Source of the DNA: an uncultured Pelagibacteraceae bacterium
Lineage (GTDB): Bacteria; Pseudomonadota; Alphaproteobacteria; Pelagibacterales; Pelagibacteraceae
Direction of reading: 5' to 3'
Assembly: GCA_902542235.1 (NCBI GenBank)
Contig: CACBTT010000006.1
Span: 1 to 64,000 of the forward strand
Length of the DNA: 64,000 nucleotides
The notes below the pieces were generated by a model. It was not told where the DNA came from, ran no database searches, and saw only the letters and a program-made list of their open reading frames with translations. The number at the start of each line of letters is the position of its first letter. Position 1 is the stretch's first letter. A program made the translations under genes and the position numbers. Positions 1,661 to 28,969 of the stretch are shown piece by piece.

Positions 1661-2710
1661 ATGAATAAATATTACACTAGAGCGTGTAATTTTTATCACG
1701 GAACAATATCAAAGACATACATTAAAAAAAAAAAATCTATTCCTCTCAATGGTTATAATCATATTTCTTTTGATAAATTAGAAATCATTGACAGAAAAAA
1801 AAACAAAATAATCAATATTAAAGATATTAGTAAACTTTCAACCAAATTAAAAAAAAAAGTTAATAGAGATTTAAAAAATATAAAAAAAAAGAAAATTTTT
1901 AAAAAAATAAATTTATCCGATATCCCTATTTTGATGGGTATAGTTAATTTAACACCAGATAGTTTCTCGGATGGTGGTAAATATAATAAAAAAAATTTAG
2001 CTTTAAAACATGTAAATAAATTATTATCAAATGGCGCAAAGATAATAGACGTTGGTGGAGAATCTACAAGACCAGGTGCAAAAGATATTAATCCTAGAAA
2101 AGAGTGGGATAGAATAAAGTTTATCTTAAAAATTTTAAAAAATAAAAAAAGTTTTGTTTCATTGGATACTAGAAAAAGCTTTGTTATGGATAAAGCTTCC
2201 AAAATAAAAGTAGATCTTATAAATGATGTGTCTGGACTAAGTTATGATCCTGAGACTATAAATTATTTAAAAAAAACAAAAAAACCTTTTGTTATTCATC
2301 ACATGAAAGGAACACCAAAAAATATGCAACTAAAACCATCGTACAATAATGTATTGCTTGATATTTATGATTTCTTTGAAAATAAATTAAAATACTTAAG
2401 AAACGAAGGTATTAAGCATAATAATATTATATTAGATCCAGGTATCGGATTTGGAAAAAATTTGAAACATAATATTACTCTTTTAAAGAATATTTCTATT
2501 TTTCATTCATTAGGCCTTCCTGTAATGTTGGGCTTGTCCAGAAAAAGATTTATTAAGGATATTTCAAGAGAAAATGATACTAAAGAAAGGATTGGTGGAA
2601 CTGTATCCTCATGCATTCAAGCATACCTTCAAGGAGTTCAAATTCTAAGGGTTCATGATATTAAAGAAATTAATCAAGCATTTAAAGTATTTAAAGAATT
2701 ACAAAACTAA
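1661..2710 (+). CDS. folP: Dihydropteroate synthase with a lysine-rich N-terminal extension
   Basis: MGIVNLTPDSFSDGG, DVGGESTRPGA and LDPGIGFGK motifs. Confidence 0.95.
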   Translation: MNKYYTRACNFYHGTISKTYIKKKKSIPLNGYNHISFDKLEIIDRKKNKIINIKDISKLSTKLKKKVNRDLKNIKKKKIFKKINLSDIPILMGIVNLTPDSFSDGGKYNKKNLALKHVNKLLSNGAKIIDVGGESTRPGAKDINPRKEWDRIKFILKILKNKKSFVSLDTRKSFVMDKASKIKVDLINDVSGLSYDPETINYLKKTKKPFVIHHMKGTPKNMQLKPSYNNVLLDIYDFFENKLKYLRNEGIKHNNIILDPGIGFGKNLKHNITLLKNISIFHSLGLPVMLGLSRKRFIKDISRENDTKERIGGTVSSCIQAYLQGVQILRVHDIKEINQAFKVFKELQN

Positions 2711-2712
2711 AA

Positions 2713-4044
2713 ATGATTAAAAAATATTTTGGAACAGATGGAATTAGAGGAAAAGTTAATGGATCTAAGATAAATGGAGAAATGTTTTTCAAATTTGGCT
2801 TAGCAGCGGGAACATACTTTAAAAATTTAAAAAAAAGTAAACAAACAGCAATAATTGCAAAAGACACTAGATTATCAGGATATACGCTTGAACCAGCTTT
2901 AGTATCTGGATTGGCATCAGCAGGAATGCATATTTATACTTTGGGACCTCTACCAACAAATGGTTTAGCGATGCTAACAAAAAAAATGAGAGCTAATATG
3001 GGTATAATGATTACAGCATCTCATAATCCATATCACGACAATGGATTAAAGTTATTTGGACCTGATGGACTTAAATTATCTGATAGAATTGAGAAGAAAA
3101 TTGAAAAGCTAATTGATTCAAAGATTACTAAAAATCTATCAAAACCAATAGAATTAGGGAGAGTTAAAAGATTAGAGGATGCTAATGAAAATTATATAAA
3201 AATATTAAAACAAAATTTTCCATCCTCTTTCAGTTTAAAAGGCATTAAAATTGCTTTAGACTGTGCTAACGGTGCCGGTTATAAAGCTGGACCTGATTTA
3301 TTTAAATCATTAGGTGCTAAAGTATATGACACTGGCACATCTCCCAATGGTTTAAATATAAATCTTAAATCTGGATCTACTTACCCAAGTAAAATTTGTC
3401 AAATGACAAAAAAAAATAAAGCTCATATAGGTATCTCATTGGATGGAGATGCTGACAGAATAATTGTCTGTGATGAAAAAGGAAAGATTATTGATGGAGA
3501 TAAAATTCTTGCAATGTTAGGTGAGAGATGGAAAAGAAAAAAAATTTTAAAAGGAGGCGTCATTGGTACATTAATGTCAAATTATGGTTTAGAAAATTTT
3601 TTTAAAAAAAATGGAATTAAATTTTTAAGATCAGATGTGGGAGATAGATATGTAAAAGAAAAAATGAAAAAAAATAAATTTAATTTAGGGGGGGAACAGT
3701 CTGGTCATATAATTCTTGGAAAGTTTGCGACAACGGGTGATGGTTTATTAGTCGCACTAGAAATCCTTTTCTCTTTAAGAAAAACAAAAAAAGCAAGTGA
3801 GCTTTTTAACAAATTTAAACCCACCCCTCAAATATTAGAAAATATAGAGGTTAAAGACAAATCAATTATTAATTCGCCAAAATGCAAAAAAGCAATTAAC
3901 GAAGCAAATAAAATAATTAAAAACAGAGGTAGAATTTTAGTTAGAAAATCTGGTACTGAACCAAAAATAAGAATTATGAGCGAGTCAGAGGATTCAAATT
4001 TAAATAAAATGTGTGTTAACATAATTAAAAAATCTATTCAGTAA
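2713..4044 (+). CDS. glmM: Phosphoglucosamine mutase
   Basis: YFGTDGIRG start, TASHNP active site, DGDADR metal loop. Confidence 0.96.
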   Translation: MIKKYFGTDGIRGKVNGSKINGEMFFKFGLAAGTYFKNLKKSKQTAIIAKDTRLSGYTLEPALVSGLASAGMHIYTLGPLPTNGLAMLTKKMRANMGIMITASHNPYHDNGLKLFGPDGLKLSDRIEKKIEKLIDSKITKNLSKPIELGRVKRLEDANENYIKILKQNFPSSFSLKGIKIALDCANGAGYKAGPDLFKSLGAKVYDTGTSPNGLNINLKSGSTYPSKICQMTKKNKAHIGISLDGDADRIIVCDEKGKIIDGDKILAMLGERWKRKKILKGGVIGTLMSNYGLENFFKKNGIKFLRSDVGDRYVKEKMKKNKFNLGGEQSGHIILGKFATTGDGLLVALEILFSLRKTKKASELFNKFKPTPQILENIEVKDKSIINSPKCKKAINEANKIIKNRGRILVRKSGTEPKIRIMSESEDSNLNKMCVNIIKKSIQ

Positions 4045-26659: not shown

Positions 26660-26745
26660 GCGGTCATGCTGAAACTGGTAGACAGGCACGGTTGAGGGCC
26701 GTGTGGGCCTAGCCCATGAGAGTTCGATTCTCTCTGACCGCACCA
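26660..26745 (+). tRNA. tRNA-Leu (anticodon GAG)
   Basis: 86-nt type II cloverleaf: GCGGTCA...TGACCGC acceptor stem, anticodon loop TTGAGGG, variable arm, GTTCGATTC T-loop, encoded ACCA. Confidence 0.95.
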
Positions 26746-26763
26746 AAAACAAATATTATTTTT

Positions 26764-26793
26764 AGGGGCGTTCTGTTGCCAGGTGCCCCAAAC
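26764..26793. repeat. Distal copy of 30-bp direct repeat (candidate att site)
   Basis: AGGGGCGTTCTGTTGCCAGGTGCCCCAAAC identical to 28668-28697. Confidence 0.9.
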
Positions 26794-26894
26794 AATATAG
26801 TCTTTTTCCTGATTTATTGAGGAAAAAATGTGTTAATTTATTACTCTTCGACGCCACTGTGACGCCACAAGTATTGTGATAGGATAAAAATAAT

Positions 26895-27605
26895 ATGATT
26901 TTCGGTTTAGGCTATAATCCTGAGAATGACGCTAGATTTATTATTGAAAAATTAAGAGATCTCGAAAAAACTTTTTATAATAAACTTGTCGACCAAAGGG
27001 GGCTTTATGAAAAAGATTTATCAGAATATTTTGACTCAGATAAAATAATTTGGAAAAAAAAAAGTATTGATACGAAAGCTAGAATAACTTCCAAAAATGA
27101 AAATAAATTTTGGTGGAAGTATGAAGAAAACGAAAAATTTGAATTTCATATATTAGCATCATTAGGATTTGTATTTAGGTGTATTTCATTTGATATGGAA
27201 GGATTTGAGGCAACACTTGATTATGATAAATTTCATAAAAGTATGGAATTTGGATTAAGGGAGTATCAAATTGACTTTATGGACAGAAGTAAAAAAGAGT
27301 CTTCAAATGCAAAGAAATTGGCTAGAAAAATTTTAGACCTTGATAATCAATTTATAGATAATTCAAAAAAACATTTGCCTGAAAATTTAAAGAAAAAAAA
27401 AAGAAAGAAGAAAGTAAAATATTACGTTCATCCAATTGATGCTCTAGATCCAGGTTTAGATAAAAATGAAATAAAAAATAGAAAATGGAATGAAAGAATG
27501 ATTGGAATTTATATGTTATTTCTTATTGTAGTTTGTTTTTTAATTCCTGCTTATGATATAATATCTGAGATGATTAGATGCAGAAGTGTTTGGTTAAAAT
27601 GTTAA
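26895..27605 (+). CDS. Hypothetical protein with C-terminal TM segment, inside tmRNA-associated insert
   Basis: 236-aa ORF; Lys-rich central region; hydrophobic GIYMLFLIVVCFLIPAYDII; no family recognised. Confidence 0.65.
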   Translation: MIFGLGYNPENDARFIIEKLRDLEKTFYNKLVDQRGLYEKDLSEYFDSDKIIWKKKSIDTKARITSKNENKFWWKYEENEKFEFHILASLGFVFRCISFDMEGFEATLDYDKFHKSMEFGLREYQIDFMDRSKKESSNAKKLARKILDLDNQFIDNSKKHLPENLKKKKRKKKVKYYVHPIDALDPGLDKNEIKNRKWNERMIGIYMLFLIVVCFLIPAYDIISEMIRCRSVWLKC

Positions 27606-27618
27606 ATAAAATTAATCA

Positions 27619-28605
27619 ATGAGGAGTAAAGAGTTTAATAAAGTAAAGCCTTATTGTTATGAAATAACCAGAAATAAGGATGGAAAAAAATATTTTGGAG
27701 TTAGATGGTCAAATATAGCTCATAATAGACCTCCAATTTATGATTTAGGTAAAAGTTATTTTACTAGTCGACCTTCTTTAAGTTCAGATTTTAGAAAAAA
27801 TAAAAAAGCTTATAAAATAAAATTTGTTTATACTTTTGACACAATAGAAGAGGCTAGAGATTATGAATTAAAATTTAATAAAAAAATTCTTAAAAATAAC
27901 AAATGGTTAAATACCTCTGCTTTTCCACAAATAATACATACAGATGAGTCTAAAAAAAAATTAAGAGTTATAAAATTAGGTTCAAAATTAACAAAAGAAA
28001 CGAGAAAGAAAATATCCAAGTCTAATACGGGAAAAAAACATAGAAAAGAAACAATTAAAAAAATGAAAGACGCTCAATTAGGAGACAAACATTGGGCTTT
28101 TGGATTAAAAGGTAAAGACAATCCAAACTATGGAAAAAAACATTCTGAAGAATTTAAAAAAAGACGAAGTCAGGTTTCTAGAGATGTATGGTTAAGACCA
28201 GGCGTAAGGGAAAAAATCAAAAAATCTATGAAAGGCAGAATACCTTGGAATAAAGGAAAAACTAATATTTATTCACCAGATGTTTTAAAAAAAATGTCAC
28301 TAGCGAAAAAAAATAAACCTAGTCCTCACATCGGAAAAAAAATGTCTGAAAGTGCAAAAAGAAAAATGAAAATTGCTTGGATTGAAAGAAGAAAAAGAGG
28401 AGTTAGTGAAGAAACTAGAAAAAAATTATCAAAAGCTTTTAGTGGAAAAAACCATCCACTTTATGGATTAAAAGGAAAGAAAAATCCAAATTATGGTAGA
28501 AAAAATTCTACTAGTACAAAAAAAAGAATGTCAATCTCTGCAAAAATTGCTTGGACATCAGAGAGAAAAGCAAATGTTAGTAGAAACAGAACTTTAAAAG
28601 TTTAG
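27619..28605 (+). CDS. GIY-YIG/NUMOD3-type putative homing endonuclease
   Basis: N-terminal YEITRNKDGKKYFGVR resembling GIY-YIG core; repeated NUMOD3-like (K)GKxNPNYGkkhSee blocks. Confidence 0.75.
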   Translation: MRSKEFNKVKPYCYEITRNKDGKKYFGVRWSNIAHNRPPIYDLGKSYFTSRPSLSSDFRKNKKAYKIKFVYTFDTIEEARDYELKFNKKILKNNKWLNTSAFPQIIHTDESKKKLRVIKLGSKLTKETRKKISKSNTGKKHRKETIKKMKDAQLGDKHWAFGLKGKDNPNYGKKHSEEFKKRRSQVSRDVWLRPGVREKIKKSMKGRIPWNKGKTNIYSPDVLKKMSLAKKNKPSPHIGKKMSESAKRKMKIAWIERRKRGVSEETRKKLSKAFSGKNHPLYGLKGKKNPNYGRKNSTSTKKRMSISAKIAWTSERKANVSRNRTLKV

Positions 28606-28667
28606 ACGCCACTACGACACCGAAAAACACAAAATTGAGTTATCCAAAATGATAATAGAGGATTTTA

Positions 28668-28697
28668 AGGGGCGTTCTGTTGCCAGGTGCCCCAAAC
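28668..28697. repeat. Proximal copy of 30-bp direct repeat, at the 3' end of the tmRNA gene (minus strand)
   Basis: Identical to 26764-26793; folds as GGGGC...GCCCC hairpin. Confidence 0.9.
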
Positions 28698-28915
28698 CCC
28701 GTAACTTAATTAATAAATTAATTAAGCTGCAAGTGCGTAACTTTCGTTAGCATTTATAAATTAGTCCTTCACGGCGGAACAATACCGAACGAAAGAATAA
28801 CTTTTAGTCATCCGTCGATCCTAATTCACCCCCATAAGTTGAAAATGGTGGAGGTGGTGGGTACTGCCCCCACGTCCGTAATGGTTATTACGAAATTCGT
28901 TTATCGTCATAGTTG
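28668..28915 (-). ncRNA. ssrA: Circularly permuted (two-piece, alphaproteobacterial) tmRNA
   Basis: Read on minus: acceptor piece ends ...GTGGGGGCAGTACCCACCACCTCCACCA (3' A at 28846), 12-nt spacer TTTTCAACTTAT, coding piece starts GGGGGTGAATTAGGATCGACGG (28833). GGGGGTG pairs with CACCTCC including a G3.U wobble. Tag frame 28751-28722 = GCT AAC GAA AGT TAC GCA CTT GCA GCT TAA (ANESYALAA*). Outer boundaries approximate. Confidence 0.93.
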
Positions 28916-28969
28916 GAAAACCAACATTAATAATATAAAACCAAATTCAATAGATTCAATAAATTATTC

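Follow-up and report, generated by a model that had tools for sequence, protein, structure and literature searches.

The nearest precedent for the SAR11 cassettes described here is given by the ssrA-specific islands of Dehalococcoides, which stand in tandem at the tmRNA gene and are bounded by repeats of its 3' end (McMurdie 2011, PMC3146451). An integration module is lacking in 15 of 31 of these islands, which were proposed to be cis-mobilizable, and the system has serine recombinases (DsiA/DsiB), a 20-bp repeat, and insertion in the T-loop (PMC3146451). In SAR11, integron attC sites were sought at the hypervariable regions in a study from 2007, and none was found (PMC2217521). No earlier description of a cassette system such as the present one was found for this group in the open-access literature, although absence there is not proof.

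The locus considered here belongs to a Pelagibacter-type genome (G000; 1.03 Mb, 73% complete), of which a stretch of 64,000 nucleotides was analyzed (the window). In our reading, it very probably carries a non-autonomous, integrase-less gene cassette that is placed at the tmRNA 3' end and mobilized in trans by a tmRNA-specific tyrosine integrase of the type found in a close relative, G242. This reading was drawn from sequence without reads, and no recombination, excision, or circular junction was observed.

An element between tRNA-Leu and the tmRNA gene

The original prediction held that a 30-bp sequence is duplicated exactly in one orientation, with one copy at the 3' end of the permuted tmRNA gene and the other 18 bp from tRNA-Leu, around two ORFs and no recombinase. 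The duplication was recovered at 26764 to 26793 and 28668 to 28697 (none expected in shuffles). ARAGORN places tRNA-Leu(gag), part of the host flank, at 26660 to 26745 on the plus strand, which leaves the predicted 18 bp. The second copy falls at the tmRNA 3' end according to both ARAGORN (28631 to 28941, minus strand, permuted, tag ANESYALAA) and Rfam (RF01849 alpha_tmRNA, 28666 to 28963, minus strand, 227.9 bits), and the tmRNA gene (ssrA), the integration target, is intact. This copy forms the tmRNA-proximal attachment junction, supported by the repeat, Rfam, and the empty site described below, and contains GGGGCACCTGG-CAACAGAAC-GCCCC on the minus strand. The other, also read on the minus strand, is the distal junction, a displaced copy of the tmRNA 3' end; judged from the exact repeat and the empty site, its tRNA-side half is old host sequence and its inner half arrived with the element. 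As both copies are identical in G000, they do not reveal where in the 30 bp the crossover falls.

Only ORF1 and ORF2 lie between the copies, and neither a recombinase or integrase gene nor any replication or transfer gene was recognized inside this 1.9-kb interval in the ORF listing or with Pfam and PHROG profiles. ORF1 (26895 to 27605, plus strand, 236 aa) is an orphan with a hydrophobic C-terminal helix that profile searches assigned to no family. ORF2 (27619 to 28605, plus strand, 328 aa) is homing-endonuclease-like and has seven NUMOD3 motifs (Pfam 8e-34; phrog_314 5e-24). The NUMOD3 part of its predicted GIY-YIG/NUMOD3-like character is thereby borne out, and the GIY-YIG domain itself remains weak (residues 3 to 98, E 0.025); phage records gave only partial NUMOD3 matches. 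AlphaFold models of ORF1 and ORF2 were too poor to use (mean pLDDT of 46 and 44). The GC content is ∼23 to 30% within the element and 32 to 36% in the adjoining flanks near the tmRNA, which is weak evidence alone.

The sister genome G089 offers an empty site, without an insert and with a single 30-bp copy that is spaced from tRNA-Leu almost as in G000. Its flanks are 95.2% and 94.6% identical to those of G000 over 4.6 kb on each side, and the G000 flanks, once joined across the repeat copies, align with it end to end. Fixation of the ORFs as core sequence in all relatives would have refuted the proposed integration; instead, neither ORF has a relative in the 200 other congeneric genomes. Together with the empty site, this indicates that the 1.9-kb interval is an insertion and not core sequence. 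The predicted integration is further supported by the loci L247 and L327, where this tRNA-Leu/tmRNA junction holds two copies around different cargo. Of the criteria for Islander-type islands, a displaced end of the target gene at the far boundary is therefore fulfilled by the exact copy and the empty site, and an integrase gene within the island is not.

Core-bounded cassettes and their arm-type repeats

A 25-bp core, GGGGCACCTGGCAACAGAACGCCCC, is present in 174 of 201 congeneric genomes, with 294 copies at up to 3 mismatches; 84 genomes have at least 2 copies and 24 have at least 3. A control with the reversed core pattern gave none in any genome among those listed. Other genera within the family also have several copies of the core, which is absent from the other family sampled; its matches in phage records, all in Gordonia phages, were at chance level. 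Series of copies, all oriented alike and separated by cargo, follow the tmRNA and likewise lie 3' of rnhA and pnp, two genes identified with Pfam. The cassettes between them span 0.3 to 6 kb, and the 103 core-to-core intervals of >300 bp have a median of 923 bp; these figures are not frequencies, because the set was selected for multiple copies. Arrays stand at 30 of 120 tmRNA-type loci that were drawn from a scan of named genomes; those listed are all Pelagibacteraceae. Cargo in four loci (L034, L037, L157, and L247) includes trypsin-like proteases, a McrB_N/NOV_C protein with a possible role in defense, an endonuclease/exonuclease/phosphatase protein, and an amidohydrolase. A third, slightly diverged core copy of G000 lies 3' of rnhA on contig 5 (L033, 5055 to 5079), with no cassette recognized beside it.

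A second repeat pair, missed in the original prediction, is nested within the 30-bp pair and turns out to hold the clue to the mechanism: GACGCCACTGTGACGCCAC at 26850 to 26868 and GACGCCACTACGACACC at 28605 to 28621. In the minus-strand reading used for the arm comparison, the distal repeat is GTGGCGTCACAGTGGCGTC, with GTGGCGTC twice at a distance of 11 bp, and the tmRNA-proximal repeat is GGTGTCGTAGTGGCGTC; the two arms of the element are GGTGTCGTAGTGGCGTC and GGCGTCACAGTGGCGTC. Tandem repeats with a period near 11 bp likewise lie inside both ends of other cassettes, ∼58 to 85 bp from the left core and mostly ∼95 to 110 bp from the right one. Their sequence varies among cassettes and agrees within one cassette (TGACTCGTCCT, TGTACGGGAT, TGTCCGCACTA, CTGGTCGGCCT, TTTGGCACA, and others). 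Across 52 non-redundant cassettes, the left and right arms of the same cassette score 9.1, versus 5.9 when swapped; a second sampling of 24 cassettes gave 9.5 versus 6.1, and in neither case did any of 20,000 permutations reach the observed value. A clear arm pair is found in roughly half of the cassettes and none in the other half or so, which suggests that part of the family has probably decayed. The G000 element is among the clear cases, with an arm score of 12.4 that only 1 of 102 swapped pairs equals, and it thus has arm-type repeats that flank the core and are matched within the element.

The same arrangement of arms, just upstream of int, recurs in related elements at tRNA-Met and tRNA-Gly that carry an integrase; this supports reading the repeats as putative arm sites of a tyrosine integrase; binding and recombination are inferred, with no assay. 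The L247 cassette looks composite, since a second arm class, GGACGACTATAGGACGAC, follows immediately inward of its GTGGCGTC arms, ∼130 bp from the tmRNA-proximal core.

Movement without an integrase is shown, at the level of sequence, by a 684-bp unit with one small ORF that has no Pfam match. It is 95 to 99.6% identical across several species and occupies three kinds of locus, namely 3' of pnp (G019), at rnhA (G066), and within a tmRNA array (G025); three more genomes (G087, G189, and G080) hold further copies, complete or partial. At the left junction the order is host GGGGCACCTGG, CAACAGAAC, and element GCCCCTTAAATAA; at the right junction it is element GGGTCGGA, CAACAGAAC, and then a host half that depends on the locus. 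As read from these sequences, such junctions are those of site-specific recombination with the crossover inside CAACAGAAC, in a unit that carries no integrase. Close homologs of its cargo gene occur in at least 15 other genomes with no core nearby, and we infer from this that the cargo is probably a captured chromosomal gene.

Candidate helpers and rival explanations

Tyrosine integrases of the tmRNA type stand directly at the tmRNA core in 2 of 399 genomes, G161 and G242, and are 52% identical to each other. No helper-type integrase was present at the 120 tmRNA-type loci within the 8 kb examined per locus, and none was found in G000, of which only 73% is available. The G161 element (L145), a core-bounded unit of 6.2 kb, encodes the integrase together with a primase-like protein and is followed by another cassette. 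G242 shares 94% identity with G000 in the host flank; its integrase lies right at the tmRNA core, and the arms, TTGGCGTCATGGTGGCGTCACAAG (that is, TTGGCGTCATGGTGGCGTC arms), come just before the integrase start; the contig stops before the distal side. The G000 element ranks fourth of the 103 cassettes in its match to these arms (TGGCGTCACAGTGGCGTC, 16 of 18 bases, GTGGCGTC class). Better matches are found in L247 and L327 (exact over 24 bases) and in L177 (exact over 20 bases). L247 and L327 keep the G242 end for 108 to 119 bp at 87 to 89% identity, after which cargo replaces the integrase; in L247 the likeness extends to the ribosome-binding region of the integrase and stops at its start codon, where the cargo begins. 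Comparison of sequences thus demonstrates that the site exists in an empty state, that an insertion has taken place, that the att anatomy is conserved, that a close relative carries an integrase element which matches, and that a comparable integrase-less cassette has moved from one species and one locus to another.

Several other integrase-bearing elements were observed in SAR11. L145, L150 (G187), and L168 (G180) form a satellite family at tmRNA, tRNA-Met, or tRNA-Gly, with a tyrosine integrase, small ORFs, and a primase-like protein. Three genomes have integrases of ∼424 to 446 aa at tRNA-Leu, accompanied by phage-like genes (L146, L147, and L148), and these are likely prophages. An island between tRNA-Gly and an integrase (L166 in G124) holds a T5orf172 gene of the GIY-YIG type (2567 to 3160), where an endonuclease again appears as island cargo.

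The proposed mechanism is that the cassette has kept the DNA requirements of a lambda-type tyrosine integrase, i.e., a core with the crossover in CAACAGAAC and a tandem arm repeat ∼60 to 100 bp inside each end. The integrase of a helper element with the same tmRNA site and arm sequence, of the type in G242, would bind the cassette arms in trans and cut and join at the core, so that the 1.9-kb unit could be inserted or be excised as a circle. The tmRNA would stay intact throughout, and ORF1 and ORF2 would be cargo. That a G242-type integrase acts on the G000 cassette is inferred, as are the circular form and the way from one cell to another. The helper satellites suggest transfer in phage particles, and no data bear on the route.

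The original prediction had left open whether the element is a satellite mobilized in trans, a decayed island, or driven by its own endonuclease. Mobilization in trans fits best, given the complete cores and the arm-type repeats at both ends, which integrase-bearing elements at the same tmRNA also have. That the element is instead a fixed remnant which lost its integrase after landing is unlikely: both cores and both arm pairs are intact in G000, and comparable units without an integrase show near identity across species and in three kinds of place, which indicates that the absence of an integrase is no bar to spread. Decay nevertheless finds support in the half of the cassettes without matched arms and in L247 and L327, where the integrase was replaced or lost among relatives of the G242 element, and integrase loss in situ and mobility in trans are not exclusive. 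We give little credence to homing, in which the NUMOD3/GIY-YIG-like endonuclease would cut the empty tmRNA/tRNA-Leu junction and repair would copy the element in. ORF2 does resemble homing endonucleases, but the arms and cores match those of tyrosine-integrase elements, paired arm repeats are not expected from homing, and no endonuclease was recognized in the other cassettes that share this site and type of end.

Two further explanations do without a helper element or without integration. A resident tyrosine recombinase, encoded beside a glycosyltransferase on contig 18 of G000, could move the cassettes as the distant integrase of an integron-like system. No local integrase would then be necessary, and a PF00589 protein of ∼307 to 325 aa is present in the majority of the 155 genomes, out of 201, that gave a match, which makes it far commoner than the helpers. 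However, it has SAM-like and catalytic domains only, its best score is to XerD and far below the cut-off, and a single conserved protein leaves differing arms within one genome unexplained, whereas an integrase such as that of G242 with matching arms explains them; we therefore consider this quite improbable. Its gene (L329, 1688 to 2641), far below the cut-offs for both XerC and XerD, may correspond to the integrase that was noted in HTCC1062 within hypervariable region 2. The 30-mer could also represent a terminator-like hairpin that is dispersed, with the interval as an ordinary spacer of variable sequence, since GGGGC...GCCCC pairs and many genomes have copies 3' of rnhA and pnp. Dispersal elsewhere in the genome, named in the original prediction as a ground for refutation, is half borne out, e.g., by the copy 3' of rnhA in G000, but the copies act as attachment sites and not as terminators: stem changes are often uncompensated (e.g., GGTGC...GCCCC), and a terminator family is contradicted by the hybrid junctions and the precise empty site. 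It was rejected, and we leave it practically no weight.

Significance and comparison with known systems

SAR11 bacteria have streamlined genomes and are among the most abundant bacterial groups of the ocean. A very common cassette system that needs only ∼100-bp ends is one route by which they may gain genes. It is possible, and proposed here only tentatively, that SAR11 has an integron-like system of many small integrase-less cassettes with one core, the tmRNA 3' end, and double-arm sites of tyrosine integrases, in which the arms serve as addresses that are each read by a different helper and which supplies much of the flexible gene content at few loci. The arms, in pairing each cassette with an integrase, make the question of the helper directly testable, and the pairing could yield tools for site-specific insertion in these bacteria, which are difficult to manipulate.

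Compared with the Dehalococcoides islands, the SAR11 system has a permuted tmRNA, tyrosine integrases with paired arm sites, cassettes down to 0.3 to 1 kb, and secondary loci at rnhA and pnp. The G000 element resembles a cis-mobilizable element (CIME) in that attL and attR are kept and the integrase and transfer genes are absent. CIMEs, however, are moved in cis by accretion with a neighbor. G000 has no adjacent integrase-bearing element, so that the condition of accretion is unfulfilled there, and a cassette in G161 does adjoin one (L145); in contrast to CIMEs, a SAR11 unit without a neighboring integrase has spread over species and loci, and the arm sequence ties cassettes to particular integrases.

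With integron cassettes and CALIN arrays (PMC11389934), the SAR11 cassettes share a small size with few genes, arrays in one orientation, and an integrase located elsewhere. They differ in having double-arm sites, two ends each, instead of a single folded attC. An attC-like GTTRRRY core is absent from both strands of the 30-mer, and the candidates score 28 to 49 bits against the integron integrase model TIGR02249 (cut-off 265), with none above it. The proposed helpers L145, L150, and L168 recall phage satellites (tycheposons, VEIMEs, and PICMI) in their tyrosine integrase, primase, and tRNA or tmRNA target, whereas the cassette itself has no integrase or replication gene, both of which are present in L145. 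Like MITEs, the cassettes are non-autonomous and keep only the ends that a helper recognizes, but they rely on site-specific tyrosine recombination instead of transposition and carry genes as cargo.
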